Shown piece by piece: positions 2,899-25,201 of a stretch of DNA of 25,781 nt (the stretch's first letter is position 1; each line of letters starts with the position of its first letter). This DNA comes from a virus. A program made the translations under genes and the position numbers. The DNA lies in the IMG/VR virus record IMGVR_UViG_3300043783_000154, positions 1 to 25,781 of that record; one strand, 5' to 3'. The notes under the pieces are model-generated. The model made no database searches, was not told the DNA's origin, and was given only the letters and a program-made list of their open reading frames with translations.

Positions 2899-2940
2899 GT
2901 ACTTTACACGGGTTCAGGAACTAGGACCCCTGCAAAGTAC
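2899..2940. other. Candidate phage attachment site (attP)
   Basis: A 42-bp imperfect dyad just upstream of the integrase start. Outer arms GTACTTT (2899-2905) and AAAGTAC (2934-2940) match perfectly, and over 18-bp arms 14 positions are complementary. The centre is GGAACT, with AA (2919-2920) at the exact midpoint. Large serine integrases typically use attP sites of about 40-50 bp made of two inverted half-sites around a non-palindromic central dinucleotide, often next to the integrase gene. Both half-sites are present, as expected for attP rather than attL or attR. A regulatory operator is the alternative reading. Confidence 0.6.
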
Positions 2941-3024: not shown

Positions 3025-3089
3025 TGCCCCCGGCCCGCACGGAAGCCCGCGCTGCCCCCAGCGCAGGCCAGGGCAGCGGGCCGGGGGCA
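3025..3089. repeat. Large two-tier hairpin in the integrase/glycosyltransferase gap
   Basis: Perfect 14-bp inverted repeat: TGCCCCCGGCCCGC at 3025-3038 and its complement at 3076-3089. Inside it lies a second hairpin, GCGCTG-CCCC-CAGCGC (3049-3064). A smaller hairpin (2945-2963, GCCCG-CCT-CGGGC core) precedes it. The whole 2857-3160 gap holds the attP candidate and these hairpins but no convincing gene; an ATG-started frame at 2946-3164 looks like chance. No T-run follows the large stem. It could insulate the synthase operon from integrase-side transcription or form a structured 5' leader. Confidence 0.6.
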
Positions 3090-3160: not shown

Positions 3161-4351
3161 GTGAAGCATGAAAGCACGGCGGGCCAGTGTCCCGGCTGGT
3201 TCGACCCGCCCGACCGGGGCGAGGCAACGCTCAGGCTGCCCGTCATTGATGATCCCGGCCGGGTGAGGATCGTTGCCCTGGTCCCGGCCCACAACGAGGA
3301 AGCGGGCATCGCCGCCACGATCCGCTCTCTGCTGGACCAGACCCGGCCGCTCGACGAGATCGTGATCATCTCCGACAACTCGACTGACCGCACTGTGGAG
3401 ATCGCCCGCCGGTTCCCGGTGACGGTGCTGGAGACCGAGGGCAACACCCACCGCAAGTCCGGCGCGCTCAACATGGCCTGGAACCTGCGCTGCAAGGACG
3501 CTGACATCATCGTCGGGGCAGACGGCGACACCAGGCTGCCACCGCATGCCGTGGCGGACTGGGAGGCTGAGTTCGCCCGCAACCCGCAGCTCGGCGGCTC
3601 CAGCAGCCAGCCCATCATGACCGGGCACGGGTTCCTGCCCCGGCTGCAGCGCAACGAGTTCTCCAAGGGCTGCCAGATGTCCCTGGCCCGCGGCTGGTGC
3701 CGCGTGGTCTCGGGCACCGGCTGCGCCTACCGGAACGTCGCCCTGCACGAGGTAGCCAAAAGACCGCACCGGGCAGGCCCGTGGACGTACGAGAGCGTCG
3801 TCGAGGACTACCACCTGACCTACAACATGCGCCAGGCCGGGTGGCTGTGCGAGATGAGCGAAACCGTCTGGTGCTGGACCGGCTCCATGACCAGCATGAA
3901 AGCCCTCTGGTACCAGCGCATCAAGTGGCAGGCGGGCACCTGCGGTGACCTGCTCACCTTCGGGTTCAACCGGCTCAATTACCGCGAATGGGCTCAGCAG
4001 GCGTTCCTGGTGCTGTGCATCGGATTCTGGCTGGTGTGGTGGTCGATGCAAGGCCCGCGCATCGTAGCCGGGGACTGGCACTTCTCCCCGCTCTGGGACC
4101 TCGCGATGCCCGCGTTCTTCGCCTCGATGGAGCTCATCCACGTCCGCCGCCAGCGGGAAAAGGACTGGAAGGACTGGCTGCTGGCCGGGTCGCTCATCTA
4201 CATGACCACCTACTCGATTCTGGCGGTGGTGTGGGGGCTGGCCAGCTGGGTCAAGGTGATCCGCGCCCGCATGGGTGACCTGTGGGCACCGCAGTACCGC
4301 GCCGAGGGCATGGCGGCCGAGGAGATGCAGGTCGGGGTGAGCGCGACGTGA
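3161..4351 (+). CDS. Membrane glycosyltransferase family 2 (polysaccharide synthase type)
   Basis: A 396-residue inverting GT2 enzyme. The GT-A fold begins with VALVPAHNEE, followed by DNSTDRT, the DxD motif in GADGDT (about D121/D123), the catalytic ED in VVEDYH (about 215-216) and QRIKW (about 252-256). That QxxRW-like motif is typical of processive synthases such as cellulose, hyaluronan and PgaC/IcaA enzymes. Three hydrophobic segments follow (about 275-300, 310-335, 360-385), so it should sit in the membrane and export or extend a polymer from nucleotide sugars. GTG 3161 is preferred over GTG 3152 because GGAG lies 8 bases upstream. The stop is 14 bases before the NodB-like gene, indicating an operon. 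The polymer it makes is unknown. Confidence 0.85.
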   Translation: MKHESTAGQCPGWFDPPDRGEATLRLPVIDDPGRVRIVALVPAHNEEAGIAATIRSLLDQTRPLDEIVIISDNSTDRTVEIARRFPVTVLETEGNTHRKSGALNMAWNLRCKDADIIVGADGDTRLPPHAVADWEAEFARNPQLGGSSSQPIMTGHGFLPRLQRNEFSKGCQMSLARGWCRVVSGTGCAYRNVALHEVAKRPHRAGPWTYESVVEDYHLTYNMRQAGWLCEMSETVWCWTGSMTSMKALWYQRIKWQAGTCGDLLTFGFNRLNYREWAQQAFLVLCIGFWLVWWSMQGPRIVAGDWHFSPLWDLAMPAFFASMELIHVRRQREKDWKDWLLAGSLIYMTTYSILAVVWGLASWVKVIRARMGDLWAPQYRAEGMAAEEMQVGVSAT

Positions 4352-4365
4352 GGGGAGCCCCGAAC

Positions 4366-5436
4366 ATGCCGCTGCGGCGCGGTGCCGTGGCCCTGGTGCT
4401 GATCGGGGGCCTGACCGCATTCGCCGTGTTCGCCGCGGCGCTCGCAGGGGCAGCGCTGAAGCAGGTGCCACACCCGGCCGCAGCGGCCAGCCCGCTTGCC
4501 CACGTCGAGCGCGTCCCGGCCCCGAAGGCCGCGCTCACCACGGCCAGGCAGGTTCCCGTCCTCGTCTACCACGAGATGGACAACGACTGCGCAGCCACCG
4601 CTGCCACCTGCGCCAGGGGCCACGACTACGAGTCCGTGTCCCAGGCTCAGTTCACGGCGGAGATGGCCTGGATGTACGCCCGCGGCTACCACACGGTCAC
4701 CCTCGCGCAGTACCTCGCATGGCTGGGTGACAAGCGCACGCTGCTGCCGCCCAAGCCGTTCCTGATCACCGCGGACAACGGGATCTGGAACTTCCTGTCC
4801 GGCAGCCAGGCCACGCTCTGGCACTACCGCTACACCGCCGCCGCGTTCCTGGTCACCGGGTTCGCCAGTGCGGCGTCAGGCCAGTGCGCCGCCAGGCTCG
4901 ACGGCATCGACGTCCAGCCGGGCTGCCCGAAGTCCAGCGAGTACTGGGACGCCACCTGGGCGCAAATCAGGTCCCTGTCGCCGGCGGTGTACAGCTTCGG
5001 CATCGAGGCGGGGCCCAGCGGCCACTACGAGCAGGACTACGCCGGCGCTTGCTACCAGTTCGACGCGTGCAAGATGCCCGGGGAAACCGCAGCGCACTAC
5101 GAGGCGCGGGTGCGAGCCGAGATGAACGGTGGCATCGCCATGCTGACCCGCCAGCTGGGCGCGCGGTTTGACGCCCGCGCCTGGGTGGTTCCCTACTCCG
5201 ACCTTGGCTACCCGTGCGAGGCAGTGTCCTGCGCCGGGGAGCAGCACACCGATCCCGGTAACTGGCTCATCCACTACGCAGCCCGCCACTTCGCCGCCGC
5301 GTTCGTGCAGGACTACTACCGGAACGGCAAAGACCATGAGCGGTTCAGGTACGAGGTGCACAACACCACAACCCTCACCCAGTTCATCGCAGCCATCCGC
5401 CACTACACGAAAGCCGGGGCGTTTCGATGGGCCTGA
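4366..5436 (+). CDS. Exported NodB/PgaB-like polysaccharide deacetylase-related protein, motifs altered
   Basis: A 356-residue protein from ATG 4366, with GAGGGGAG 8 bases upstream. The N-terminus has an RR pair and a hydrophobic segment (about 8-30) that serves as signal peptide or anchor. The core opens with VPVLVYHEMDN (about 63-73), characteristic of PgaB/IcaB-type deacetylases. The usual TFDDG metal motif reads TADNG (about 136-139), so a metal-binding Asp is Asn. No clear H(S/T)xxH motif follows; the matching region seems to be GIEAGPSGH (about 212-220). Several cysteines suggest disulfides outside the cell. Downstream of a GT2 synthase, a role in binding or modifying that polymer is likely, but catalysis is doubtful. 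Confidence 0.75.
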   Translation: MPLRRGAVALVLIGGLTAFAVFAAALAGAALKQVPHPAAAASPLAHVERVPAPKAALTTARQVPVLVYHEMDNDCAATAATCARGHDYESVSQAQFTAEMAWMYARGYHTVTLAQYLAWLGDKRTLLPPKPFLITADNGIWNFLSGSQATLWHYRYTAAAFLVTGFASAASGQCAARLDGIDVQPGCPKSSEYWDATWAQIRSLSPAVYSFGIEAGPSGHYEQDYAGACYQFDACKMPGETAAHYEARVRAEMNGGIAMLTRQLGARFDARAWVVPYSDLGYPCEAVSCAGEQHTDPGNWLIHYAARHFAAAFVQDYYRNGKDHERFRYEVHNTTTLTQFIAAIRHYTKAGAFRWA

Positions 5437-5639
5437 TCGGCGACGGAAACGCTTTCCTCTACTCAGTGAGCGCGCTGACGTCCGCGCTGGCGCTGACGAC
5501 CGTGATCCGCCGGCCACGCTGGCTGCGCGGGGCGCAGTGGCGCAGCCGCCACCCGCGCGGCGGGCGTTCCTCGGGCTTCTCGGCGGGCTCGCTGCCGGCA
5601 TCCTGCTGGCAGCCGATCAAGGAAAGGAATCGCAGATGA
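5427..5639 (+). CDS. Small membrane protein, hypothetical
   Basis: A 70-residue frame starting at ATG 5427 inside the end of the NodB-like gene. Residues about 9-27 (AFLYSVSALTSALALTTVI) look like one membrane segment followed by a basic tail. The last third is Ser/Arg-rich and looks less like a real protein. Over the same bases another frame encodes a signal-peptide-like segment, so the functional part of this gene may be only its first 35-40 codons. The stop overlaps the next ATG as ATGA. No family recognised. Confidence 0.5.
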   Translation: MGLIGDGNAFLYSVSALTSALALTTVIRRPRWLRGAQWRSRHPRGGRSSGFSAGSLPASCWQPIKERNRR

Positions 5640-6211
5640 GCACTCCCTACAACGTCTCCGGGACACTGAGCACCGGAGGCGGCTCGTTCCCGGTCACCGG
5701 GACACTGAACCTCACCCCGGCCAGCGGCGGTACGAGCGGCACGGCCGGGACCGGCACCGTCACTCCGGAGGCCCTGCCCAGCCAGACCGCCATCGGCACC
5801 GGCTCCAACGCGCAGGCCTGGGCCTCAGCCATCCTGACCGCGCTCGATGCCCCGGTCACTACAGTTAACATCAACTCGCTCGTGGGCTGGTTCGGCCAGG
5901 AAGACAACCACGGCTCGGCCGGCGAGGGCGCTGACGGCATCGGGGCGAACAACCCGCTGTCGATCACGGGAGACACGCCCGGCATCACCGGCTCGAACGG
6001 CTCGGTGACATCGGGTGCCGGCGGCCCGCCCAACCTGACGTTCCCCACGGTGACGGCCGGTGTCGACGCCCTCGTGGAAGCGCTCAACTCCTACCCCGCC
6101 ATCCTCGCGGCCCTCAAGTCGGGTGCGGGGCTTCCCACCGTCGGCCCGGCAAACGCCTCGGTTACCGCTGAGCTCAGCGAGTGGTCCGGCGGAGGGTACG
6201 ACTCCGTGTGA
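5636..6211 (+). CDS. Gly/Thr-rich protein with lysozyme-like domain
   Basis: A 191-residue protein from ATG 5636, preceded by AAGGAAAGG. The first 60 residues are Gly/Ser/Thr-rich with repeated 'GT(L)' units, suggesting a secreted or surface linker. Residues about 62-120 contain WASAILTALDAP, NINSLVGWFGQED and ANNPLSIT. This resembles the lysozyme-like fold seen in actinophage tail lysins and endolysins, with Glu in GQED the likely acid. It could cut peptidoglycan or bind glycans. An in-frame GTG at 5537 would add a twin-arginine-like signal (ARRAFLG followed by a hydrophobic stretch), supporting export. The overlap with the next gene is GTGA. Confidence 0.6.
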   Translation: MSTPYNVSGTLSTGGGSFPVTGTLNLTPASGGTSGTAGTGTVTPEALPSQTAIGTGSNAQAWASAILTALDAPVTTVNINSLVGWFGQEDNHGSAGEGADGIGANNPLSITGDTPGITGSNGSVTSGAGGPPNLTFPTVTAGVDALVEALNSYPAILAALKSGAGLPTVGPANASVTAELSEWSGGGYDSV

Positions 6212-7455
6212 ACGAGCACGATCGGTTCCTGGCCACCAGGATGCGCCGGATCCCCGGCCTGCCGGACATGGGCTGGCTGGAGGGCAAGCGCATCCTGGTG
6301 ACCGGCGGCACCGGGTGTATCGGCTCCCGGCTGATCCGGGAGTTGAGCAAGCATCACCCGGCCGCGCTGGCCAGCTTCAGCATGCGCCCCGGCCTGTCGC
6401 CCTGGCCGAAGACGGAGGGCGTGAGCTACCTGCAAGGCGACATCCGCCACTACGGGACCCTGATGGACGCCATGCGCGAGGGCTGGGACGTCGTCTTCCA
6501 CACTGCGGCGCAGCGTGACCCCGGGCTCGCCGAGCGGCATGTCGCCGAGACGGTGACCACCAACGTGTTCGGCTCGCTCAACGTGATCCGCACCGCCGAG
6601 ATCACGGGCGCGGGCTGCCTGATCTTCGCCTCGACCGGCAAGGCGCTGCGCCCGTTCTCACCCGACACCTACACCGCCAGCAAGCGGATCGCCGAATGGC
6701 TGCTCGCCGGCTCGCTGGTGCCGCTGAGCGGCTGCGCCCGGTTCACCCACGTCGTCGACAACTCGATCTTCTACGGCCGGCTGGCCCGGTGGTGCCACTA
6801 CGGCCAGCCCATCGCGCTGCACAGCCGGGACGCCGTGTTCTACCTGCAGTCGGCCACCGAGGCCGCCGAGCTGCTCATGGGCGCGGCGTCCAGCGCCCGC
6901 GAAGACCAGGCCGAGGTGCACGCCATCACGGACCTGGGCATGCCGGCGGCCCTGCTTGACCTTGCCGAGGGGTGCCGCGCGGCCATGGCGTCGGACTCGC
7001 CCATCGTGGTCACCGGCTACGCCAGCGGGTACGAGGAGAAGCCGTTCCCGGGACTGTATGACCCGCTGACCGCTGGCGAGGTCTCGCCGCTGCTCAACGC
7101 CTTCGAGGCTGCTGTGGCCCGCCAGCCTTACCCGGGAGCCGGCGCGGCGCCGCTGGACTTCGGCGCCGCGGAGATCCGGCTGAAGTCCCTGGAGCGGGCC
7201 TGCTGGCCGATGGCCGGGTGCCCGGACCCGTGCGGCATCAAGGCAGCGATGCACGAGGTGTCATGGGCGATCATGCGCGCGGCCGTGGCCGCCGCCCCGC
7301 TCGAGACCGTCCGGCGCGTTGCAGCCTTGTGCAAGCAGTACGAGCCCCTGCCATGGCCGCACGACGAAATGCTCGCGATCATCGCCGGGACAGCCGGGAA
7401 TGGCCGGCACGAGCCCACGAGCCTGGAGGCCGAGAATGACAGACCCCGAAGCTAA
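6208..7455 (+). CDS. NAD-dependent epimerase/dehydratase-like protein (extended SDR)
   Basis: A 415-residue protein starting at GTG 6208, overlapping the previous stop. The Rossmann fold begins with ILVTGGTGCIGSRLI (GxxGxxG, about 30-45) and the catalytic YxxxK is in YTASKRIAEW. FASTGK takes the place of the usual Ser/Thr of the triad. Such enzymes epimerise, dehydrate or reduce nucleotide-linked sugars in the cytoplasm. About 120 C-terminal residues (from LNAFEAAVARQ) do not look like standard SDR and form a helical extension. Beside a GT2 synthase and a NodB-like protein, sugar-donor supply is the natural inference. The substrate is unknown. Confidence 0.8.
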   Translation: MNEHDRFLATRMRRIPGLPDMGWLEGKRILVTGGTGCIGSRLIRELSKHHPAALASFSMRPGLSPWPKTEGVSYLQGDIRHYGTLMDAMREGWDVVFHTAAQRDPGLAERHVAETVTTNVFGSLNVIRTAEITGAGCLIFASTGKALRPFSPDTYTASKRIAEWLLAGSLVPLSGCARFTHVVDNSIFYGRLARWCHYGQPIALHSRDAVFYLQSATEAAELLMGAASSAREDQAEVHAITDLGMPAALLDLAEGCRAAMASDSPIVVTGYASGYEEKPFPGLYDPLTAGEVSPLLNAFEAAVARQPYPGAGAAPLDFGAAEIRLKSLERACWPMAGCPDPCGIKAAMHEVSWAIMRAAVAAAPLETVRRVAALCKQYEPLPWPHDEMLAIIAGTAGNGRHEPTSLEAENDRPRS

Positions 7456-7756: not shown

Positions 7757-8091
7757 TCACGCTCATCATCGCCCTCGCTGCCACGGCCGCTTACCTGGTC
7801 ATCGGCTGGCGCTTCATCGCGCCGACGTGGGTAACCCGCGAGGTCGCCAGGCAGGTTGAGGCGTACCGATTCTCGGCCGCCGACCCGGCCGAAGTGGCCG
7901 GCTGGCGGCGCACCGCCGCAGGCGAGGGTGTCGCGCTCGGCCTGATCTGGCCGGTCTACCTGCTGGGCAGGTTCCTGCTTGGGAAGGTTGCCGACGCCGC
8001 GCCGCTGACCGATTTCGAGGCCAAGCGGAAGATCGCCGGCCGGGACCGCCGGATAGCCGAGCTTGAACGGCAGCTTGGGATCAAGCCGTGA
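7753..8091 (+). CDS. Small membrane protein
   Basis: A 112-residue protein from GTG 7753 (GTGA overlap). The N-terminus (about 2-22, ITLIIALAATAAYLVIGWRF) is a membrane segment or uncleaved signal. A second hydrophobic segment lies at about 60-77 (VALGLIWPVYLLGRFLL). The C-terminus is a charged, probably coiled-coil helix (RDRRIAELERQLG). The topology would allow a membrane-anchored adaptor; similar small proteins are common in actinophage early operons. Function unknown. Confidence 0.6.
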   Translation: MITLIIALAATAAYLVIGWRFIAPTWVTREVARQVEAYRFSAADPAEVAGWRRTAAGEGVALGLIWPVYLLGRFLLGKVADAAPLTDFEAKRKIAGRDRRIAELERQLGIKP

Positions 8092-8441
8092 TCCGCGCCC
8101 ACGTCGCCGACCACTCCTACGGATTCGGCGTCGCCATCCTCATCGCCGACCGGCCGCGAGACCTGCCCGGCCAGCCGTACCGGCTCCTGCACATCGGCCA
8201 GGACGGCACCGCCCGCGAATGGGAAGAGGTCACCAGCCCGGCGCTCGGCCCGTCCGGGCCCACCCTGACACTGGAGGACGACGAAGCCCGCGCGCTGCTG
8301 GACGCCCTGACCCGCTACTACCACGGGGCCGAGGACACGCGGGCGCTGCGGAAGGACTACGACGCGGAGCGGGCCCGCGTCGACAAACTGACCGCCGCCC
8401 TCGGTGATGTGGTCAAGGCTCTGGTGAGCGAAGGTGGCTGA
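8088..8441 (+). CDS. Small hypothetical protein with C-terminal coiled coil
   Basis: A 117-residue protein starting at GTG 8088 in a GTGA junction. The first half looks like a beta-rich domain (ADHSYGFGVAILIA, RLLHIGQDGTAREWEEV). The second half is helical and charged (ALLDALTRYYHG, RKDYDAERARVDKLTAAL), a likely coiled coil. No catalytic motif seen. Its stop falls eight bases into the next gene, consistent with translational coupling. Function unknown. Confidence 0.6.
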   Translation: MIRAHVADHSYGFGVAILIADRPRDLPGQPYRLLHIGQDGTAREWEEVTSPALGPSGPTLTLEDDEARALLDALTRYYHGAEDTRALRKDYDAERARVDKLTAALGDVVKALVSEGG

Positions 8442-8706
8442 ACTCGGCAGCCGCAACAACTACATGCGCCTCCAGTGCAAGCACTGCCCGTGGGTGCCGC
8501 CCGAGAGCATGAAGATGGAAGGCGCGCTGCTGCACTTCCAGGTCGAGCACGACACCGACCAGGTGCATCTTGACTTGGTCGCGGTGTGCTCGTGCGGCGC
8601 GGCCATGGCGGTCACAGAGTCGCGGCCGACCGGCGGCGGGATCAAGGACTACCTGAAGTGCGGGGCGTGCGGGAACACGGGCCATCTGCGGAGGAATGCC
8701 GCGTGA
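8434..8706 (+). CDS. Small zinc-ribbon-like protein
   Basis: A 90-residue protein from GTG 8434. It contains three cysteine pairs: CKHC (about 15-18), CSC near residue 52 and CGAC (about 77-80), plus several histidines (HFQVEHD, HLDL). The last pair, KCGACGNTGHL, is a typical zinc knuckle. It is probably a small metal-bound structural or nucleic-acid-binding protein. No family is assigned. Its end overlaps the next start by four bases. Confidence 0.6.
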   Translation: MAELGSRNNYMRLQCKHCPWVPPESMKMEGALLHFQVEHDTDQVHLDLVAVCSCGAAMAVTESRPTGGGIKDYLKCGACGNTGHLRRNAA

Positions 8707-9119
8707 CCGAACTGCGGAACTTCCTGATCGCTGCTGTCGCCACCGCGGCGTTCTGGCTGTACATCGCATTCAGCCTGCCGTCCGTGATCGCAGGCGCTCT
8801 CGTGTTCGTGGTGTCAGGCGGATTCACCTTCCTGGCGATCCAGCTGCTGGTGAGCGCGGGCGAACCGCGCCCGGGATCGCTCCCGCTGCAGCACCGGCCG
8901 GTGGTGCTCCAGCGCCAGGCCGCGCCGTTCTGCTACCACTGCGAGGTCGATGAGGCCGTCGAAAGCGGCGACCGGTTCCGCCTGGACAGGCTCGGCCTGA
9001 TGCTCGCAGGCTTCCCCATCGGTGACCTGTACCAGCGTCACCGGGACTGCTGGGTCACCACGGGCGACGAGAAAGAACTGGCCCGCATGCTGCGCCACGT
9101 CACCTGGACGGCCTCATGA
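8703..9119 (+). CDS. Membrane protein with C-terminal cysteine domain
   Basis: A 138-residue protein from GTG 8703 (GTGA overlap; the open frame runs further upstream but lacks a better start). Two hydrophobic segments in the first 50 residues (FLIAAVATAAFWLYIAFSL and VIAGALVFVVSGGFTFLAIQ) form a hairpin anchor. The rest is soluble, with CYHC near residue 78 and a DCWVT motif, possibly zinc-bound. Two closely spaced helices with a short turn also fit a holin-like layout, but the large soluble domain argues against that. Confidence 0.55.
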   Translation: MTELRNFLIAAVATAAFWLYIAFSLPSVIAGALVFVVSGGFTFLAIQLLVSAGEPRPGSLPLQHRPVVLQRQAAPFCYHCEVDEAVESGDRFRLDRLGLMLAGFPIGDLYQRHRDCWVTTGDEKELARMLRHVTWTAS

Positions 9120-9134
9120 CCGAGGATGGCTGAC

Positions 9135-9581
9135 ATGGACATAGCCGAGTTCCTAGCCGCCCGCTGGGATGAGCTGGAGCGCATCGCCACCGAAGCGGCG
9201 AAGGTGCCGGGCCGCCGCTGGGAAGCCAAATCGCAAGGTCAGAGCCGCGAGAACGATGGCGTGCTCTGGGATGACGACCTGGCGAACATCATTGCCTGGT
9301 TCGACAGTCACTTTCCGGCGGCGATGCACGCCGCAGTGCACGACCCGCAGTACGTCCTCGCTGACATCACAGCCAAGCGGGCGATTCTGGCCGAGCATGC
9401 ACCGGCCGACTTCACCGCCTACGGCGACCGTCTTTGCCGGCGCTGCCGGTTCGGTGACGATGAGCCCGGGCGCGATGAACTGCACCACTGGGTGCCGTGG
9501 CCGTGCCGCACAGCGTGTTTGCTGGCCGCCCCGTTCGCTGCCCATCCGGAGTTTGACCCGTCATGGAGGCTGGAACCGTGA
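9135..9581 (+). CDS. DUF6221-like protein
   Basis: A 148-residue protein. ATG 9135 is chosen over ATG 9126 because GAGGA lies 8 bases before it and because relatives begin at 'MD..(E/A)FL.AR.DE'. The features match, from memory, the actinobacterial DUF6221 family: N-terminal FLAARWDELERIA, a central HDPQYVLADITAKRAIL, a C-terminal cysteine stretch (CRRC, PCRTACLLA) and the ending AAHPEFDPSWR. The family is common in streptomycetes and their phages and has no known function. The gene overlaps the next by four bases. Confidence 0.7.
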   Translation: MDIAEFLAARWDELERIATEAAKVPGRRWEAKSQGQSRENDGVLWDDDLANIIAWFDSHFPAAMHAAVHDPQYVLADITAKRAILAEHAPADFTAYGDRLCRRCRFGDDEPGRDELHHWVPWPCRTACLLAAPFAAHPEFDPSWRLEP

Positions 9582-10015
9582 GCGAGCACATCTTTGAAGA
9601 GGTCAAGGCGGACCTGGCCGAGGAAGCCCGGCGCGCCCTCGGCGGCGTAGAGGCTCTTTTCGGTCACGCCCGATACCATGACGGCAGCGTGACCGAAACC
9701 CTCCCGGAGGAGACAGGCATGGGCGTGCTCAGCGTCATAGACGACGACGTGAAGGAATACCTGACCGAAGGCTTCGACTACCTCGGAGGCATGGCGGCCA
9801 AGCTCAAGGCAGCCGCTCCCGGCATCATCGCCGTCGCCGAGGCTTCTGGTTCGCAGACCGTCTCCGCTGCCGTCGAGTCGCTGGCCGGCCGGGTTCTGCC
9901 GCCCGACGTTGACGCATGGCTGGCGGGCGTGGTCAAGGACGCGATCGAGAAGTTCGGCGCACCGGCAGCAGCCCAGCCAGCACCAGCCGAGCCCGCAGAG
10001 GCTCCGGCTGCGTGA
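9578..10015 (+). CDS. Hypothetical protein with possible internal second start
   Basis: A 145-residue protein from GTG 9578, which overlaps the previous stop and has GGAGG 8 bases upstream. The N-terminus is acidic and helical (EEVKADLAEEARRAL); the C-terminus is Ala/Pro-rich (APAAAQPAPAEPAEAP), a likely flexible tail. An in-frame ATG at 9719 has an even better ribosome site (GGAGGAG, spacing 6) and would give a 98-residue product starting MGVLSVIDDDVKEYL. Between the two starts lies an 11-bp inverted repeat around a -10-like hexamer, so a shorter, separately regulated product is possible. Function unknown. Confidence 0.6.
   Translation: MSEHIFEEVKADLAEEARRALGGVEALFGHARYHDGSVTETLPEETGMGVLSVIDDDVKEYLTEGFDYLGGMAAKLKAAAPGIIAVAEASGSQTVSAAVESLAGRVLPPDVDAWLAGVVKDAIEKFGAPAAAQPAPAEPAEAPAA
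9658..9698. promoter_or_regulatory. Inverted repeat, possible operator overlapping a -10 box
   Basis: TTTCGGTCACG (9658-9668) and CGTGACCGAAA (9688-9698) are perfectly complementary over 11 bp, separated by 19 bp. The spacer contains TACCAT (9674-9679), a TANNNT-type -10 hexamer. GTG 9689 and ATG 9719 (with strong Shine-Dalgarno) lie in frame downstream. No good -35 is visible. The arrangement suggests a dimeric repressor site over an internal promoter, or an RNA hairpin hiding nothing else obvious. Confidence 0.4.
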
Positions 10016-10296
10016 TTGTGCAGGAGCAGGTCACCCTCACCGAGGACGTCCCGATCGGGCTGTGGCGGGATGCGGTGTCGCGCGAGGCGTTCTGGCAGGA
10101 CATGCGCCGCAAGCTCGCCTATGGCGTGGTGAAGGAGCGGCCAGGCTGGTCGCTGCTGGAACAGCGGGAGGACCGCTACGCGCTCTATGTGCGCCGGGTA
10201 ACCGGGCCCGGCGGTAAGTCCGAGGTCACCGAGTGCTCGCTCGCTGAGGCGGAGTCCGCCCGGCTGCGGCTGTCGTGCTGGGCGGCTGAGGCGTGA
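10012..10296 (+). CDS. Small hypothetical protein
   Basis: A 94-residue protein from GTG 10012 (GTGA overlap); GTG 10018 is a second possible start. It appears to be an alpha/beta protein: TLTEDVPIGLWRDAV, then FWQDMRRKLAYGVV, WSLLEQREDRYALYVRRV and a C-terminal helix. The short beta segments with alternating charge resemble small phage proteins of unknown role. No motif is recognised. The gene overlaps the next by four bases. Confidence 0.6.
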   Translation: MIVQEQVTLTEDVPIGLWRDAVSREAFWQDMRRKLAYGVVKERPGWSLLEQREDRYALYVRRVTGPGGKSEVTECSLAEAESARLRLSCWAAEA

Positions 10297-10511
10297 CGGC
10301 GGATCCCGGCACCCATCCCGTCTCGCTGCGAACTCACCTGCGCGAACTGCAGACGGCGCTGGACGGCGCCGCGGCCGAGCACTTCGCCCACCGCCGGGCC
10401 TGCCACTGCAAGGAAGGCTCAGGCTGCACCGAGGGCAGGCAGCTGTCGGCGCGGGTCGCTGGGGCGCAGTGGCAACTCGCCATGGTCCGCTTTTTGAACC
10501 AGGAGGACTGA
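10293..10511 (+). CDS. Small hypothetical protein with Cys/His patch
   Basis: A 72-residue protein from GTG 10293 (GTGA overlap). The middle contains HFAHRRACHCKEGSGC, a Cys/His group that could bind a metal, flanked by two helices (LRTHLRELQTALDGAA and RVAGAQWQLAMVRF). Such short helix-metal-helix proteins are frequent in actinophage gene runs. No function assigned. The next gene's Shine-Dalgarno (AGGAGG) lies inside its last codons. Confidence 0.55.
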   Translation: MTADPGTHPVSLRTHLRELQTALDGAAAEHFAHRRACHCKEGSGCTEGRQLSARVAGAQWQLAMVRFLNQED

Positions 10512-10516
10512 TCCCC

Positions 10517-10681
10517 GTGCCACCTGAGCAGCCGATGCCGGCTGACCCGATAACGGCGCTCGCCGAGTCGACGCTGCAGCTTCACGAGATGTTCCTCGCC
10601 GCGGTCAAGTCCGGGTTCACCGAGGCCCAGGCCATGCAGATCGTCCTCACCGTGATCTCGGCATCGCTGGGGAAGGGCTGA
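10517..10681 (+). CDS. Very small hypothetical protein
   Basis: A 54-residue protein from GTG 10517, with AGGAGG (10501-10506) about 10 bases upstream inside the previous gene. The C-terminal 30 residues (MFLAAVKSGFTEAQAMQIVL) make an amphipathic helix-turn-helix-like pattern, 'GFTE.QA..I', seen in many tiny phage proteins. The longer open frame upstream overlaps the previous gene heavily and is not preferred. It is followed three bases later by the next ATG. Confidence 0.55.
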   Translation: MPPEQPMPADPITALAESTLQLHEMFLAAVKSGFTEAQAMQIVLTVISASLGKG

Positions 10682-10684
10682 CCA

Positions 10685-11188
10685 ATGACCGAGGACGCCA
10701 GATCCGCTCTCGCTGCCGCCGCCTACCTGGCCGCGCACCGCGATGACGTTCATGTCCGCGATGCGCCCGCCCAGTCCGTCCCGCCCGGCCATACCCACTG
10801 GCTCACCCTCGCCGATGAGGGATACCGCTGGCTGCAGGAGCACGGCGAGCCAGCCGCCACCAGCGCAGACCTGGCCGTCATCAGCGGCCAGCTGGAAACC
10901 GTCGACACGAAACTGGAGAAGATCATGACCGAAGATGCAGCTGTACAAGCCGTCACCGCCGACATTCTCGCCGACGAGCAGGCCATCACCACGGCCATAG
11001 GCACGATCCAGGCCGCGGTAACCGCGGCTGCGGCCGACGCCGTGCAGCCGTCCACCCTGACCGCGCTGCAGTCCGCTCAGGCCGCCCTGGACTCGCTGAC
11101 CGCGACCGTGAACTCGGACGCCTCGTCGGACACCCCGGCCTCGTCCTCGTCGCCGGCGAGCACTTCGGGCACCACGCCGGCCAGCTGA
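10685..11188 (+). CDS. Coiled-coil, Ala/Ser/Thr-rich protein
   Basis: A 167-residue protein from ATG 10685. The first 55 residues look globular (WLTLADEGYRWLQEHG). Residues about 60-140 are a long helical stretch with regular hydrophobic spacing (LAVISGQLETVDTKLEKI, ILADEQAITTAIGTIQ), probably a coiled coil. The last 25 residues are Ser/Thr/Pro/Ala only. It resembles short fibre-like or stalk proteins often found in actinophages, but no exact family is claimed. It closes the operon: a strong intrinsic terminator follows 12 bases after its stop. Confidence 0.65.
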   Translation: MTEDARSALAAAAYLAAHRDDVHVRDAPAQSVPPGHTHWLTLADEGYRWLQEHGEPAATSADLAVISGQLETVDTKLEKIMTEDAAVQAVTADILADEQAITTAIGTIQAAVTAAAADAVQPSTLTALQSAQAALDSLTATVNSDASSDTPASSSSPASTSGTTPAS

Positions 11189-13981: not shown

Positions 13982-14968
13982 GTGAAACGGTGCCCCCGAT
14001 GCGGCGTCATGAAGTCACTGGAGCAATTCGGCGCTGACCGAACAAAACGTGATGGCCGGATGTCGCATTGCCGGGATTGCACCAACGCAGCCCGCAAGGC
14101 CAGGTACTACGCCAACATCGAGCACGAGCAGGCGCGCGGTCGTCAGTATTACCAGGATCACCGCGAGGAGAAGAGGGCCGCGGCGCTCGCCTGGCGGGCA
14201 GCCAACCTGGACAAGGTCCGTGCGTACTGGCGGGAGCAGTGGCACCGGAAGACGCAGAGCCAGAGGCGCCCAAGGCGCCAGAGCGGGCACGGAGGCCCTG
14301 AAGAGTGGGCACGGATGTGGGAAGCGCAAAGCGGGCGCTGCTATCTCTGCCAAGTGGAATTCCTGCCAGGCGACAAGGTCAGGGTTGACCATGATCACGA
14401 TTGCTGCAATTCAGCGAAGAACGACGCGTCGTGCCGCGCATGCCGGCGCGGGCTCGCTCACGATGCCTGCAACCTGCTGATCGGCATCGGCGAGGATGAC
14501 GCCAATCTCATGCTGGTGATCGCGGGCAACTTCGAGCGTGCCAGCGATCTCGCTAAGGCGCGTATCGCCGCGCTGGCAGCGACACAGGGGTCACTGTTCG
14601 GCGATGGCGTGGCCACGGCACGCGTTCGCTCCCGCAGTCGCGCCCACGACGGCCCGGCGGAGTGGGCACGCATGTGGGGCGCGCAGGCTGGCTGCTGCTA
14701 CCTGTGCGACCGCCCGATGGATCGCCTGGGCAACATTCACGTGGACCACGACCACTCCTGCTGTCCTGGTGGTGAGCGCACGGACTCCTGTTACGCCTGC
14801 CGCCGCGGACTGTGCCACGCAGCTTGCAACTGGCTCGTCGGCATGGTCGGCGAGGACATGGACCTGCTGAGGCTTATCGTTGACTCGTTCGCGCCTGTCC
14901 AGGCAGCAGCCCGTGAGCGGATCGCTGCCAAGGCGGCAGAGCAGGGAACACTCGACATCGCCGTGTGA
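13982..14968 (+). CDS. Tandem endonuclease VII-like HNH nuclease (two nuclease domains)
   Basis: A 328-residue protein. The N-terminus has a zinc finger (CPRC at 4-7, CRDC at 30-33) and a basic helical region (about 40-95) typical of phage HNH proteins. Two copies of an endonuclease VII-type domain follow. The first has EWARMWEAQSGRCYLC, D136-HDH, C141/C142, C151-x2-C154, H160 and N164. The second has EWARMWGAQAGCCYLC, D255-HDH, C260/C261, C270-x2-C273, H279 and N283. Each keeps all zinc and metal residues, so both may cut DNA. EndoVII-family enzymes resolve branched DNA; phage relatives may also act as homing nucleases. A single domain is usual, so the internal duplication is unusual. GTG start, leaderless. 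Confidence 0.85.
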   Translation: MKRCPRCGVMKSLEQFGADRTKRDGRMSHCRDCTNAARKARYYANIEHEQARGRQYYQDHREEKRAAALAWRAANLDKVRAYWREQWHRKTQSQRRPRRQSGHGGPEEWARMWEAQSGRCYLCQVEFLPGDKVRVDHDHDCCNSAKNDASCRACRRGLAHDACNLLIGIGEDDANLMLVIAGNFERASDLAKARIAALAATQGSLFGDGVATARVRSRSRAHDGPAEWARMWGAQAGCCYLCDRPMDRLGNIHVDHDHSCCPGGERTDSCYACRRGLCHAACNWLVGMVGEDMDLLRLIVDSFAPVQAAARERIAAKAAEQGTLDIAV

Positions 14969-15309
14969 CGAGGAATGGCACCGTGGCGTGGAGAAACTCA
15001 TCTGAAGACCGCCGCCGCAGCAGCGAGACTTACGGTGATCCTGTCTACCTGCGGAACCGGCAGGAAGCCCGCCGCCGCGCTCGGGGTTACTGCGAGCAGT
15101 GCGGGCACAGGCATGCCCGGCTGGAATGCGACCACGTCATCCCGCGTTCGCAGGGCGGCACCCACGACCTCGCCAACCTGCGCATGCTCTGCAAGGGCAC
15201 TGCGAGTTGCCGCTGCCATGAGCGCAAGACGGGTCAGGAAGGCAACGCCGCCAAGACGTCAGCACGGCCGGCACCTGACCCTGCGCCACGTCCGGTCACG
15301 AAGTGGTAA
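14965..15309 (+). CDS. HNH endonuclease
   Basis: A 114-residue protein from GTG 14965 (GTGA overlap; GTG 14983 is an alternative). The classical HNH core is complete: C43-x2-C46, then LECDHVIPRSQGG (D56, H57), N71, and C82-x-C84-H85. Small HNH enzymes encoded beside terminase genes are common in HK97-like phages and, in studied cases, assist terminase in cutting packaging substrates. Here the large terminase is next door but on the opposite strand, so the two genes converge. A role in packaging is an inference from position. Confidence 0.85.
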   Translation: MTRNGTVAWRNSSEDRRRSSETYGDPVYLRNRQEARRRARGYCEQCGHRHARLECDHVIPRSQGGTHDLANLRMLCKGTASCRCHERKTGQEGNAAKTSARPAPDPAPRPVTKW

Positions 15310-15628: not shown

Positions 15629-18334
15629 CTACGCGCTGAGCACCCTGATGCGGGCCGGCCGCGGCTCGGGCAGCAGGAGGGCCTCGTGCGCAGCGCCGGC
15701 GAACGCGTAGGCGGCATCCACATGCCCCTTCGGCGCGTCGTCGTCATCTTCGGGGTCGTCCGTGCCGGCGCTGGCGTCCTTCCCGGTCGCTGCTTTGCGG
15801 GCGAAGCGCCATCCGTCGCCGGACTTGAGGCGGGAGGCCGCGCCGAGGTGGCTGTTGAGCAGCGGGTCGTTCGGGTGCAGGACCATCCGGCCTTTGACGA
15901 GGCTGGCCAGGCCCATGCAGGCCTCGCAGACCTCGCCTCCGGTGAGTTCCGCGTAGTGCGGCCGGCCGGGCGCGGCATCGGCCAGCTTGACCGGGCGCCC
16001 CTTGGGCGCGCGGAAGACCGGCGCGAGCGACGCGGCGGGCCCGGACGGGTACCAGGCGATGATGGAGGGCTTCATCCGCTCAAGCAGCGGCGCCAGCTCG
16101 AGGCGCGCGGCAGCAGCGGACGGCCAGGAGGCGGCGATCTCGCCCCGGACCTTCCCCTCAGGCGTCTTCGCGGCGACGGCGAGCGTCGCGTGGCCGTCGT
16201 CGGGGGCGACGTCGAAGCACGCCGCGAGCCGGCTGCGCAGGGAGTCCATGGTGACGGCCGGGTCGGCGCAGGCGCCCCAGGCGGTCATGTCGATTGCGGA
16301 GTCCAGGTGGCGGACCCTTTGGCACATGACCTCTGTGTTGTGTGTGGGCACCAGGTCGCCTGCCAAGAACAGGGAGTCCGGCGCGTCCACCTTGATGCAC
16401 CGGACCGGCACCGATGCGACTGGCTCAATGCTGGCGATGGTGGTGGGGCGCACGTCGCGTGGCCCGCGCGCGGCACGGATGCGCTCGGCCTTGCGCGGGA
16501 GCGTCACGGGACAGGGCTGGTCCGGGCGCGGCGTGAAGTCGACCGACAGTCTCGGCAGGTGGTGCGACTTGCCATACTGCCCAGCCTCAAGCTCGCTCGT
16601 CTTCCAGCCGAGAGAGCGCACCAGCGTACGAACTCCCGCGATCAGCTCGGTGTTCGTGTTGACGAAGCAGCACCGGCCGGATTTCGCCGTCACGGTCCCA
16701 TCGGAGTCCATAAGGCCGCGTAGCAGGTCGAGCCGTTGCGCCAGCGAGGCGGTCAGGTAGATGTCGGGGACGAACTTGCGGAAGTCGCTCGCGAGGGCCT
16801 TGCGGAACGGCATCTGCGGGTAGATCCCCAGCGAGCGCAACGCCCTTATGAACGCACCATGGCGGCCGACCCGGAAGCCGATGCGCTCGCAGTGTGCGGA
16901 GTCGGGCGCGCGGGTCGTGATCGTCGCACCGGACGCCTCCATGCGTGCCGCAATGTGGTCGGCGTCACGGCTCTCCGCGCAGATTGTCGCGCTGCGGCGC
17001 GACCCGTCGCCGAGCCATAGCCCGAGCAGGTACGGGTGCACCGGCAGATCAACATCGGGGCCGTCCAGGGGGGCGACGGGTGGCAGTGAGAAGTTGCGCA
17101 CATCGAAGTTCATGCTGGGGTGGTGGTACGTGACGCCGCGCGAGATCAGATCCGTAGTCCGCAACGTCTCGAACGCCGGCCTTGGGCGCCGCCGGTCGCG
17201 CACGGTCCAGAGGTGGCCGGCGTCGCACACGATGGACCTGCCGTCGTTCAGCGTGACCCTGTAGCAGTCGCGTCCGACATGCGTCTCCGATGCCCCCACG
17301 ACATTGACCCATTCGCCGGAAGTTCCCTTCACGGCGTCTCCTGCCTGCAGTCTGTCTATTGGCATAGTACCACAGGCGGTTAGAACCGGCGTGCTGACGT
17401 CAAGGCAGCGAAAGATCTCCGGTGGGTCGCTCGCCATGTCCGATGCGATGGCGCGGGCGCTGATGATGTGGCCGAGTCCGGGGTTGGCCTGCGCGATCTG
17501 CTGCCAGTCGTCAATCGGGCAGTAGCCGTCGCTCTCATCGTCGTACTCGCCGGAGTACTCAAACAGGCCGATGGTCTCGTCCCGGCCGTGCAGCGCTGAG
17601 TCGCGGAGCTGGTTGAGGACGACGGATTCGTCATCCCCGGCGTTGGACATGGCCCAGATCTGGCTGTTGGGCCGGGCCATGGTGGTCTTGGAGACGGCGG
17701 CCCACGATTTCCAGTCCCGCTGCTCGCGGAGTTCATCGATGTTGACTTCGTCGTTGCTGCCGCCGCGGCCGGCCTTCCGGTTGCTGGCCTTGATCTTGTA
17801 CCGGGCACCGTTTGCCAGCCAGAATGTCTCCTGGCCGTTGATGTTCCGGAGCCGCCCGATCTTGCGGGCAGGGTTGAACTCGCCGGAAAGGACCAGGTCG
17901 TCCTCTATCGTGTCCTGGCACAACTGCCACTGCTCTTTGGCGAGGTCCAGTTCCTGGGCGAGGCCGAGGACGCGCAGTTTCGGGTTGTGGTACATGCGCC
18001 AGAGCGTGATTGTCCGTTTTAGGTCTGATTTTCCGTTTTGCCGAGCCACTAGGATGACCACTTTCCGGAACCTGTACGTGCCATCGGGCAGCAATTCCAG
18101 TGCGTGGATGGCGACCCAGCGCTGCCACGGCAGCAGTGGCTTGCCGATCTTCTCGGCGAAGTCGGCGACGTCGTAGCCGTCGCTGGTGCGGCGGTTCAGA
18201 GGGCGCAGGGGCGGGGTGAACAGCCGCGGCGTTGCCTTGCCTTTAAGTCCTCTTGGCGCTGCGCGCAGCGCGGGCTTCGCGCTGCTGGTCAAGCCAGGTG
18301 GGCTGAGTACTGGCACTGTCACCCCCGGCGTCAA
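15629..18334 (-). CDS. terL: Terminase large subunit with intein
   Basis: A 901-codon frame: 309 N-extein residues, a 357-residue intein and 235 C-extein residues, so the spliced protein is about 544 residues, normal for TerL. The ATPase has Walker A in LVARQNGKSDL (about 95-105) and Walker B in VNIDEL (about 197-202). After the splice point, AACFDVAPDDGHATL carries the first acidic residue of the RNase H-like nuclease, and HVDAAYAF near the end is a likely later metal ligand. TerL pumps DNA into the prohead and cuts concatemers. Starts are all weak: TTG 18334, GTG 18322 or 18316, TTG 18292. The N-terminus overlaps the small terminase gene. Transcription is opposite to the head genes. Confidence 0.92.
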   Translation of the reverse strand: MTPGVTVPVLSPPGLTSSAKPALRAAPRGLKGKATPRLFTPPLRPLNRRTSDGYDVADFAEKIGKPLLPWQRWVAIHALELLPDGTYRFRKVVILVARQNGKSDLKRTITLWRMYHNPKLRVLGLAQELDLAKEQWQLCQDTIEDDLVLSGEFNPARKIGRLRNINGQETFWLANGARYKIKASNRKAGRGGSNDEVNIDELREQRDWKSWAAVSKTTMARPNSQIWAMSNAGDDESVVLNQLRDSALHGRDETIGLFEYSGEYDDESDGYCPIDDWQQIAQANPGLGHIISARAIASDMASDPPEIFRCLDVSTPVLTACGTMPIDRLQAGDAVKGTSGEWVNVVGASETHVGRDCYRVTLNDGRSIVCDAGHLWTVRDRRRPRPAFETLRTTDLISRGVTYHHPSMNFDVRNFSLPPVAPLDGPDVDLPVHPYLLGLWLGDGSRRSATICAESRDADHIAARMEASGATITTRAPDSAHCERIGFRVGRHGAFIRALRSLGIYPQMPFRKALASDFRKFVPDIYLTASLAQRLDLLRGLMDSDGTVTAKSGRCCFVNTNTELIAGVRTLVRSLGWKTSELEAGQYGKSHHLPRLSVDFTPRPDQPCPVTLPRKAERIRAARGPRDVRPTTIASIEPVASVPVRCIKVDAPDSLFLAGDLVPTHNTEVMCQRVRHLDSAIDMTAWGACADPAVTMDSLRSRLAACFDVAPDDGHATLAVAAKTPEGKVRGEIAASWPSAAAARLELAPLLERMKPSIIAWYPSGPAASLAPVFRAPKGRPVKLADAAPGRPHYAELTGGEVCEACMGLASLVKGRMVLHPNDPLLNSHLGAASRLKSGDGWRFARKAATGKDASAGTDDPEDDDDAPKGHVDAAYAFAGAAHEALLLPEPRPARIRVLSA
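16337..17407 (-). other. Intein with LAGLIDADG homing endonuclease inside TerL
   Basis: Residues 310-666 of the terminase frame. It starts at Cys310 (CLDVSTPVLTACG, block A), has a block B with CDAGHLW (His about 374), and ends SLFLAGDLVPTHN with Asn666, followed by Thr667 as the +1 nucleophile. Two LAGLIDADG motifs lie between: LLGLWLGDG (436-444, Asp443) and LRGLMDSDG (538-546, Asp545). All residues for splicing and DNA cutting seem present, except that block B has Cys in place of the usual Thr. The insertion lies between the ATPase and nuclease domains, at IFR/TEV. Removing it restores one continuous terminase sequence. Confidence 0.93.
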
Positions 18335-24439: not shown

Positions 24440-24547
24440 TAAACGGCCCGGCTACTAATCCTCGGAAAGGAGGTTCTGTCAGTGGTGACGGATATTCTTG
24501 AGAATAAACCGGCAATTGGCCGGACCTGCAATCCGAGGAGAATTCAG

Positions 24548-25201
24548 ATGCCAGGAAGGAAGCCATGCCCGGTGGGCTGTACCTGCGGGCACCATCCGCA
24601 GGGCAACCTGCCCGCTGCGGAGAAGGATCGCCTCCAGCGTGAGCGTGCCCACGAGCGGTATGTGGAGAACCGCGAGGAGAAGATCGCCTACGCGCAGGAG
24701 TGGGGGCGTTCTCACCCCGAGCGCCGGCGCGCGAACACGCGGAGAGCAGCCCGCGTGTACCGGGAGAAGAACCGGGACACCATCAACGCCAAGGCGCGGG
24801 CGGCATACGATCCAGCGGCCGATTCGGTAAAGAGCCGCGTGTGGAAGTTCGGCCTGTCGCGCGAGGAGACGGTGCGCCGGTTCAACGAGCAGCGCGGCCG
24901 GTGCTACATGGGTGGCGAACCGCTGGACCTGGATGCACCGAGGGGTTTCTTCGTTGATCACGCTCGCTGGTGCTGCCCGGGTATCAAGTCGTGCGGTCAG
25001 TGCGTGCGTGGGCTGACCTGCGATTCCTGCAACAAAGGTGCCGGGTGTTTCGGCGATGACCCGGCGCGTTTGCGCCGGGCTGCCGACGCGATTGAGGCGG
25101 CGGACGCCGCCGTTTCGGCCCAGATGGCCACCATGCCCGTCCAGGGCGAGCTTCCGATCGATATCAAAAGGGCGGCTCGCCGCCGGGAGGAGAGTGCGTA
25201 G
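24548..25201 (+). CDS. Freestanding endonuclease VII-like HNH protein
   Basis: A 217-residue protein from ATG 24548 (GAGGAG, 7 bases upstream). It starts with a cysteine finger (CPVGCTCGHH), then a long basic helical region (about 25-90) and an endonuclease VII-like core near 110-165: RFNEQRGRCYM, VDHARWCC (D137, H138), SCGQCVRG and TCDSCN. The first zinc CxxC reads C-Y-M-G, so one ligand is missing. An in-frame GTG 24482 behind a near-perfect AAAGGAGG site would add 22 residues and is a real alternative. The gene sits between capsid and the next head gene, a classic homing-endonuclease place. Activity is uncertain. Confidence 0.75.
   Translation: MPGRKPCPVGCTCGHHPQGNLPAAEKDRLQRERAHERYVENREEKIAYAQEWGRSHPERRRANTRRAARVYREKNRDTINAKARAAYDPAADSVKSRVWKFGLSREETVRRFNEQRGRCYMGGEPLDLDAPRGFFVDHARWCCPGIKSCGQCVRGLTCDSCNKGAGCFGDDPARLRRAADAIEAADAAVSAQMATMPVQGELPIDIKRAARRREESA

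Follow-up and report, generated by a model that had tools for sequence, protein, structure and literature searches.

A five-gene viral cassette with a probable role in exopolysaccharide synthesis and its variants in other viral records

We analyzed a stretch of viral DNA, the linear IMG/VR record IMGVR_UViG_3300043783_000154 (25.8 kb, GC content about 68%; the whole 25,781-nucleotide stretch is referred to as the window), with a focus on a block of five genes at positions 3161-7455 that encodes a glycosyltransferase of family GT2, a NodB-like exported protein, a small membrane protein, a putative glycan hydrolase, and a short-chain dehydrogenase/reductase (SDR). The open reading frames (ORFs) of the five coupled genes proposed in a preliminary description of the window were all confirmed (Table 1). 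Start and stop codons overlap at every junction, with GTGA at the start of the NodB-like gene (4348), ATGA at the start of the fourth ORF (5636), and GTGA at the start of the SDR gene (6208). Since the block is conserved in independent phages among the viral records and contigs compared with the window (labeled L002 to L041), it is not a chance product.

Table 1. Features of the cassette and its surroundings in the window
Feature	Position	Strand	Remarks
GT2, processive-type membrane polysaccharide synthase	3161-4351	+	Catalytic domain, interface helices, C-terminal transmembrane (TM) helices
PgaB/NodB-like (CE4-related) exported, membrane-anchored protein	4348-5436	+	One N-terminal TM helix, residues 14-32
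Small single-TM protein with basic P(R/K)-rich tail	5427-5639	+	TM helix, residues 9-27; proposed synthase partner
Conserved putative glycan hydrolase (fourth protein)	5636-6211	+	Motifs E89-D90, NNPL, WSGxGY
Extended SDR, nucleotide-sugar epimerase/dehydratase class	6208-7455	+	Polysacc_synt_2, 2e-23 (Pfam)
Serine integrase	1264-2856	minus	Divergent from the cassette; Pfam Resolvase 5e-19; PHROG integrase 1e-67
Candidate phage attachment site (attP), imperfect dyad GTACTTTaCACGGGTTCAGGAACTAGGACCCCTGCAAAGTAC	2899-2940	.	Between integrase and cassette
14-bp perfect inverted repeat	3025-3089	+	Lies in the leader that precedes the GT2 gene

The first protein of the cassette matches the Pfam GT2 family (5e-20), and its best match among 18,950 NCBIfam families is PgaC_IcaA (8e-24). 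This profile hits each of the four cassette GT2s (4e-26 at best), with scores far short of the family cut-off; the window protein scores 84.4 bits, below the curated 422 bits for the synthase of poly-N-acetylglucosamine (PNAG; TIGR03937). Catalytic residues are not missing: D121 and D123 (DxD), E215-D216, and Q252-R253-x-K255-W256 (QRxKW) are invariant in seven phage GT2s, with a lysine in place of the arginine of the Q(Q/R)xRW motif. An AlphaFold2 model of the protein, built from seven sequences (predicted local distance difference test, pLDDT, 76; predicted template modeling score, pTM, 0.76), displays the synthase-class arrangement of a GT-A domain, interface helices, and a TM region. A Foldseek search with this model ranked the hyaluronan synthase (HAS) of a Chlorella virus first, and by VIA the two structures aligned with Z 25.1 over 321 residues (root-mean-square deviation 3.1), followed by HAS1, BcsA, and the chitin synthase Chs1 (Z 22-25). 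These alignments cover GT2 residues 27-384, with the match to processive synthases spanning 34-377, and include the C-terminal membrane helices, and the assignment as a processive-type membrane GT2 was thus upheld by structural comparison. TarP and TarS stand lower in the fold list, and PgaC/PgaD complexes are absent from the fold lists, which carries no weight either way. The alignment with HAS begins at HAS residue 81, so the GT2 chain has nothing that corresponds to the N-terminal membrane helices of that enzyme. A role of this predicted synthase in polysaccharide synthesis is well supported by the model.

Pfam gives no match for the NodB-like protein, even at E 5. Against NCBIfam, PgaB ranks first for the window protein (5e-15) and also matches two relatives (2e-16 and 2e-14), and the BpsB/PgaB structures are found in PDB both by sequence (4e-7) and by profile (3e-7). 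With the GT2 pointing to PgaC and its neighbor to PgaB, two adjacent genes independently indicate the PNAG pathway. Enzymes of family CE4 hold their metal by a second Asp and a His pair (PMC13254593). Where PgaB has T-F-D-D-G, all four phage NodB-like proteins have T-x-D-N-G: the base Asp (D143) is kept, and the metal Asp is replaced by N144 in each of them. The only His residues invariant in the four phages are H75 and H226, and no His pair is present. The description of an exported NodB/PgaB-like protein fits the sequence matches to PgaB and the N-terminal TM helix, but deacetylase chemistry is doubtful, the metal triad being absent. The exported domain may instead serve in binding or have been altered in some other respect.

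The small membrane ORF has no match to any family, NCBIfam included. Counterparts with one helix and a basic tail follow the NodB-like gene in L018 (MLWLGAIISQ...LIPKPRRLRR) and L005 (...GGLPRPKFLRRSR). In L025, the GT2 polypeptide carries two extra C-terminal TM segments, the last being LLLAITVGTMTMAVLELFPKIKIRRR; these probably correspond to the NodB anchor and the small protein, joined to the synthase in one chain, and both would then be parts of the synthase complex. The same-place counterparts and the fusion confirm that the ORF is a gene, and with its single helix, conserved position, and fusion to the GT2 in L025 it may be a synthase partner like PgaD/IcaD, the small membrane protein that such synthases need for activity.

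The fourth protein is 44-52% identical to two paralogues in L018 and to one protein in L025, with which it shares E89-D90, NNPL, and WSGxGY. The L018 paralogues lie in tandem (L018:11051-12242); a lipoprotein-type signal is present in the first, and no signal in the second. The lysozyme-like character given in the preliminary description was not borne out by comparison with Pfam, NCBIfam, or PDB, where the protein matches no known family. A profile of its family likewise finds nothing in PDB, its members reach only unrelated PHROGs, weakly (E 0.025 or worse), and tblastn against phages and plasmids returned nothing. The same slot is occupied in L005 by a GH16 protein with a twin-arginine leader (3e-16) and in L036 by a secreted GH26 protein (4e-8). 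With these families in its place elsewhere, the fourth protein is best taken, provisionally, for a glycan hydrolase. Whether it is secreted is ambiguous: the ATG at 5636, supported by a ribosome-binding site, gives no signal, whereas a same-frame GTG at 5537 gives a twin-arginine/hydrophobic leader resembling those of the twin-arginine translocation (Tat) system. The reading of the whole protein as Tat-exported was not adopted, as the ATG at 5636 has a good ribosome-binding site and aligns with the start of the second L018 paralogue.

The best solved relative of the SDR is WlaL/PglF (7e-27). The YxxxK motif is kept, and STGK replaces the dehydratase STDK in all four full-length SDRs read. The earlier assignment as an epimerase holds at the level of the nucleotide-sugar epimerase/dehydratase class, but epimerase identity is unproven, and the protein is possibly an epimerase or a reductase. 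A search of IMG/VR places its three strongest matches (E 2e-84 or better; the next at 2e-18) in contigs that also bear a GT2, namely L025, L018, and the record of L005.

Related sets differ in order and content. All five genes are present in L018, with the SDR gene first. L005 has the order GT2, NodB-like, small TM, and GH16 genes, and an SDR gene lies about 10 kb away in the same record; L037 has GT2 and NodB-like genes with a partial SDR gene, and L025 has the order GT2-hydrolase-SDR with the NodB domain missing. The GT2s of the window, L005, L018, and L025 form one clade (100/100). In L036, a 122-kb phage with a tyrosine integrase, the GT2 gene is directly followed (9211-11087) by genes for the GH26 protein and a membrane-anchored canonical CE4 protein (TYDDG, HTWDHPH, RPPYG; Pfam 7e-36), which fills the role of the NodB-like protein. 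The cassette lies among replication genes in L005 (ParB, SNF2 helicase, PD-(D/E)XK nuclease) and in L025 (D5-type primase/helicase). None of 12 records with the window's capsid (35-94% identity; several of them short fragments) shows a GT2 or NodB-like match, and the cassette is therefore an accessory, exchangeable one. Two scans of 84,980 species genomes returned no close bacterial copy of the cassette and only distant GT2s; as they relied on short exact peptides, a copy may have escaped them. A phage-borne polysaccharide block, rather than plain host genes, is thus what the comparisons support. Separately, about 140 polar residues are inserted in frame near residue 200 of the L041 GT2 ORF (7794-9491), and intein motifs are not obvious in them.

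A simpler version, consisting of a GT2 gene and a gene for a membrane protein of ~50 aa, occurs in phages of Microbacterium, Arthrobacter, and Brevibacterium. TinyMiny, SilentRX, and Cantare resemble the window in that a gene for a small membrane protein comes after their GT2 (41-46% identical), but they differ in that no NodB-like, hydrolase, or SDR gene adjoins and in that their small protein has an LAxTG-like motif. The ~50-aa proteins that follow lone actinophage GT2s (L002:6080-6229, L003:6086-6238, L004:6062-6223) have a sortase-like LA(A/Y/V)TG motif with almost nothing N-terminal of it, one TM helix, and a basic tail.

The preliminary description had raised the question of whether the five-gene order recurs beside serine integrases, and had suggested that the set, lying near attP and the integrase, may be a lysogenic-conversion cassette. 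The order is not fixed, and no serine recombinase domain was found in seven GT2-bearing records, two of which (L036 and L041) have tyrosine integrases. Among the other carriers searched, no record has the integrase of the window. With no serine recombinase seen in carriers other than the window, a tie between the cassette and serine integrases was dropped; lysogenic conversion suits the window itself but does not hold generally.

We propose that the five genes constitute a phage-carried, synthase-dependent exopolysaccharide cassette that remodels the actinobacterial surface, a reading that we consider probable. The SDR would prepare a nucleotide sugar, which the GT2 would polymerize while passing the growing chain across the membrane. 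In this it would be aided by the small TM protein and probably by the NodB-like anchor; the anchor may supply helices absent from the GT2, giving a split synthase of GT2 and partner helices. The exported NodB-like domain would bind or modify the emerging chain, and the small putative hydrolase would trim it. By this scheme the cassette would polymerize sugars in vivo, and the infected or lysogenic cell would acquire a new or altered surface polymer; we favor a hexosamine polymer resembling PNAG, galactosaminogalactan, or hyaluronan as the product. The phage might benefit because its receptor is masked, because superinfecting phages are excluded, or because the cells aggregate differently.

Several points weigh against this proposal. 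The Pga similarities of the GT2 and NodB-like proteins are all far below the equivalog cut-offs. In the phage GT2s, the arginine of QxxRW is a lysine (K255). Canonical deacetylation by the NodB-like protein appears doubtful from its sequence, which has lost both the metal-binding Asp and the pair of His residues; its AlphaFold2 model with three relatives (pLDDT 35) was unusable and was discarded. The fourth protein lacks a known family, and the SDR is without the dehydratase Asp and so does not carry the signature of UDP-N-acetylhexosamine 4,6-dehydratases (PglF/PseB). Finally, other actinophages keep just a GT2 and the ~50-aa membrane protein, so a simpler glycosylation role is possible for this GT2 family.

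That simpler role leads to the strongest of the alternatives, which we nevertheless regard as unlikely: the GT2 would be non-processive and, with the SDR and the membrane partners, would transfer sugars singly to a wall polymer of the host or to a lipid carrier in a Gtr-like or teichoic-acid-like manner, while the exported proteins edit wall glycan. Besides the reduced actinophage sets, a weak GtrB-like PHROG match (9e-7) and the presence of TarP and TarS in the fold list speak for it. Against it, the best fold matches (Z 22-25) are to processive synthases, with alignments that extend through the TM region, the QRxKW motif is invariant, and glycanase and deacetylase modules suit a polymer better. 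Prophage gtr serotype-conversion clusters are likewise phage-borne genes predicted to change host surface glycans, but GtrB is a lipid-carrier glucosyltransferase, whereas the phage GT2 has the fold of polymer synthases; the weak GtrB-like match stands alone, with no GtrA or GtrC seen among the coupled genes.

It is quite improbable that the exported proteins, as lysozyme-like and PgdA-like factors, serve in peptidoglycan remodeling or assist lysis, with the GT2 and SDR as passengers. Such a role would accord with a lysozyme-like motif pattern recognized by eye in the fourth protein and with the peptidoglycan deacetylases among NodB-like folds. Against it, PgaB/BpsB are the best relatives of the NodB-like protein, the hydrolase is replaced by GH16 or GH26 in other phages, and the co-occurrence of GT2 and SDR is too tight for passengers.

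Viral GT2, CE4, GH16, and GH26 genes from mangrove soil have been listed as carbon-cycle auxiliary metabolic genes (PMC6460857), as have glycoside hydrolases of permafrost viruses (PMC6786970). That the cassette enzymes degrade environmental carbon in the same way is highly improbable, as the set combines a synthase, which is biosynthetic, with a nucleotide-sugar enzyme, and degradation alone would need neither. Host genes acquired once or misassembled, without a phage function, are almost certainly not the explanation: none of the 12 capsid-related contigs shows GT2 or NodB, but at least four independent viral contigs have related sets in which the frames are intact, the nearest annotated relatives belong to phages, and the short-peptide scans of species genomes returned no close copies.

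The cassette shares features with several known systems. As in the PNAG (Pga/Ica) systems, the layout is synthase-dependent, with a GT2 most like PgaC/IcaA, an exported protein most like PgaB/IcaB, and a proposed small membrane partner; it differs in scoring far below the equivalog cut-offs, in the lost NodB-like metal site, and in lacking PgaA or IcaC. Streptomyces MatAB makes PNAG, and MatB unites a GT2 with a CE4 domain (PMC5972031), which resembles the pairing of the phage GT2 with a CE4-class domain. The phage set departs from both systems in having an extra SDR and a separate hydrolase and in being phage-borne. The five-gene galactosaminogalactan cluster of Aspergillus (uge3, gtb3, agd3, ega3, sph3) encodes an epimerase, a glycosyltransferase, a deacetylase, and hydrolases (PMC4817252). 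The role set is alike (epimerase-class enzyme, membrane glycosyltransferase, exported deacetylase-class protein, and hydrolase), but the fungal proteins are different, gene-for-gene homology is not established, and the phage set has one hydrolase and a small TM protein. Chlorella virus HAS, the best structural match, is also a virus-encoded processive membrane GT2; it differs in its sequence (13% identity), in its residues 1-80 with the N-terminal helices that the window GT2 lacks, and in the bacterial host and partner genes of the phage synthase.

Outside the cassette, the window contains a run of small ORFs and genes for terminase, portal, protease, and capsid, besides the serine integrase. 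The integrase is most closely related to those of Streptomyces phages SV1, Raleigh, and Bioscum. For the capsid, a single near-full-length match was obtained among phages, in Streptomyces phage Dagobah (35% identity). Because these relatives are Streptomyces phages, the host is probably actinobacterial, among Streptomyces-like soil bacteria. In the candidate attP dyad, 15 of the 22 arm positions are complementary, a level that 7 positions in the window reach. No sigma-70-like promoter was found before the cassette, in a search that is uninformative at 68% GC. A tRNA-Ser(GCT) lies directly downstream of the integrase 3' end (1085-1263), adjoined by a second tRNA-Ser(CGA) that was called by ARAGORN and that Rfam does not confirm. 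An intein that contains a LAGLIDADG domain splits the terminase large subunit (15629-18334, minus strand) at about residues 309-660, and several capsid relatives have a different insert or none at this point. Three Cys/His-rich ORFs at 13982-15309 and 24482-25201 resemble HNH-type endonucleases, one of them directly after the capsid gene. In relatives of the window phage, a second capsid-like protein, about 35% identical, is encoded downstream of the first (L008:9069-10070, L011:13252-14352, L012:7485-8579, L015:4885-6006, L016:2159-3286).

Phages are known to degrade or decorate host sugars, and virus-encoded change of surface glycans is already known; the cassette is a variant of that kind. 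To our knowledge, whole synthase-type polymer systems encoded by viruses are rare, the Chlorella virus hyaluronan synthase being the textbook case. We found no description of a phage synthase cassette of this kind in the open-access literature, which omits most subscription journals. Since its variants sit in several otherwise different viruses, these viruses probably use the set to recoat or alter infected cells. A broader generalization, conceivable rather than probable, is that actinobacterial phages carry complete, mobile, and modular exopolysaccharide factories with a split synthase and interchangeable deacetylase and glycanase modules; if so, many soil-virus carbohydrate-active enzymes read as carbon-degrading auxiliary genes would be parts of coat-building cassettes. 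The degenerate NodB-like family raises a clear question of its chemistry. Even short of that generalization, some of the GT2, CE4, GH16, and GH26 genes of soil viromes would belong to biosynthetic rather than carbon-degrading cassettes. A recurring bacterial-virus version of such a synthase system would mean that phages can recoat the cells they occupy, with consequences for superinfection, the aggregation of filamentous bacteria, and the evolution of phage receptors.

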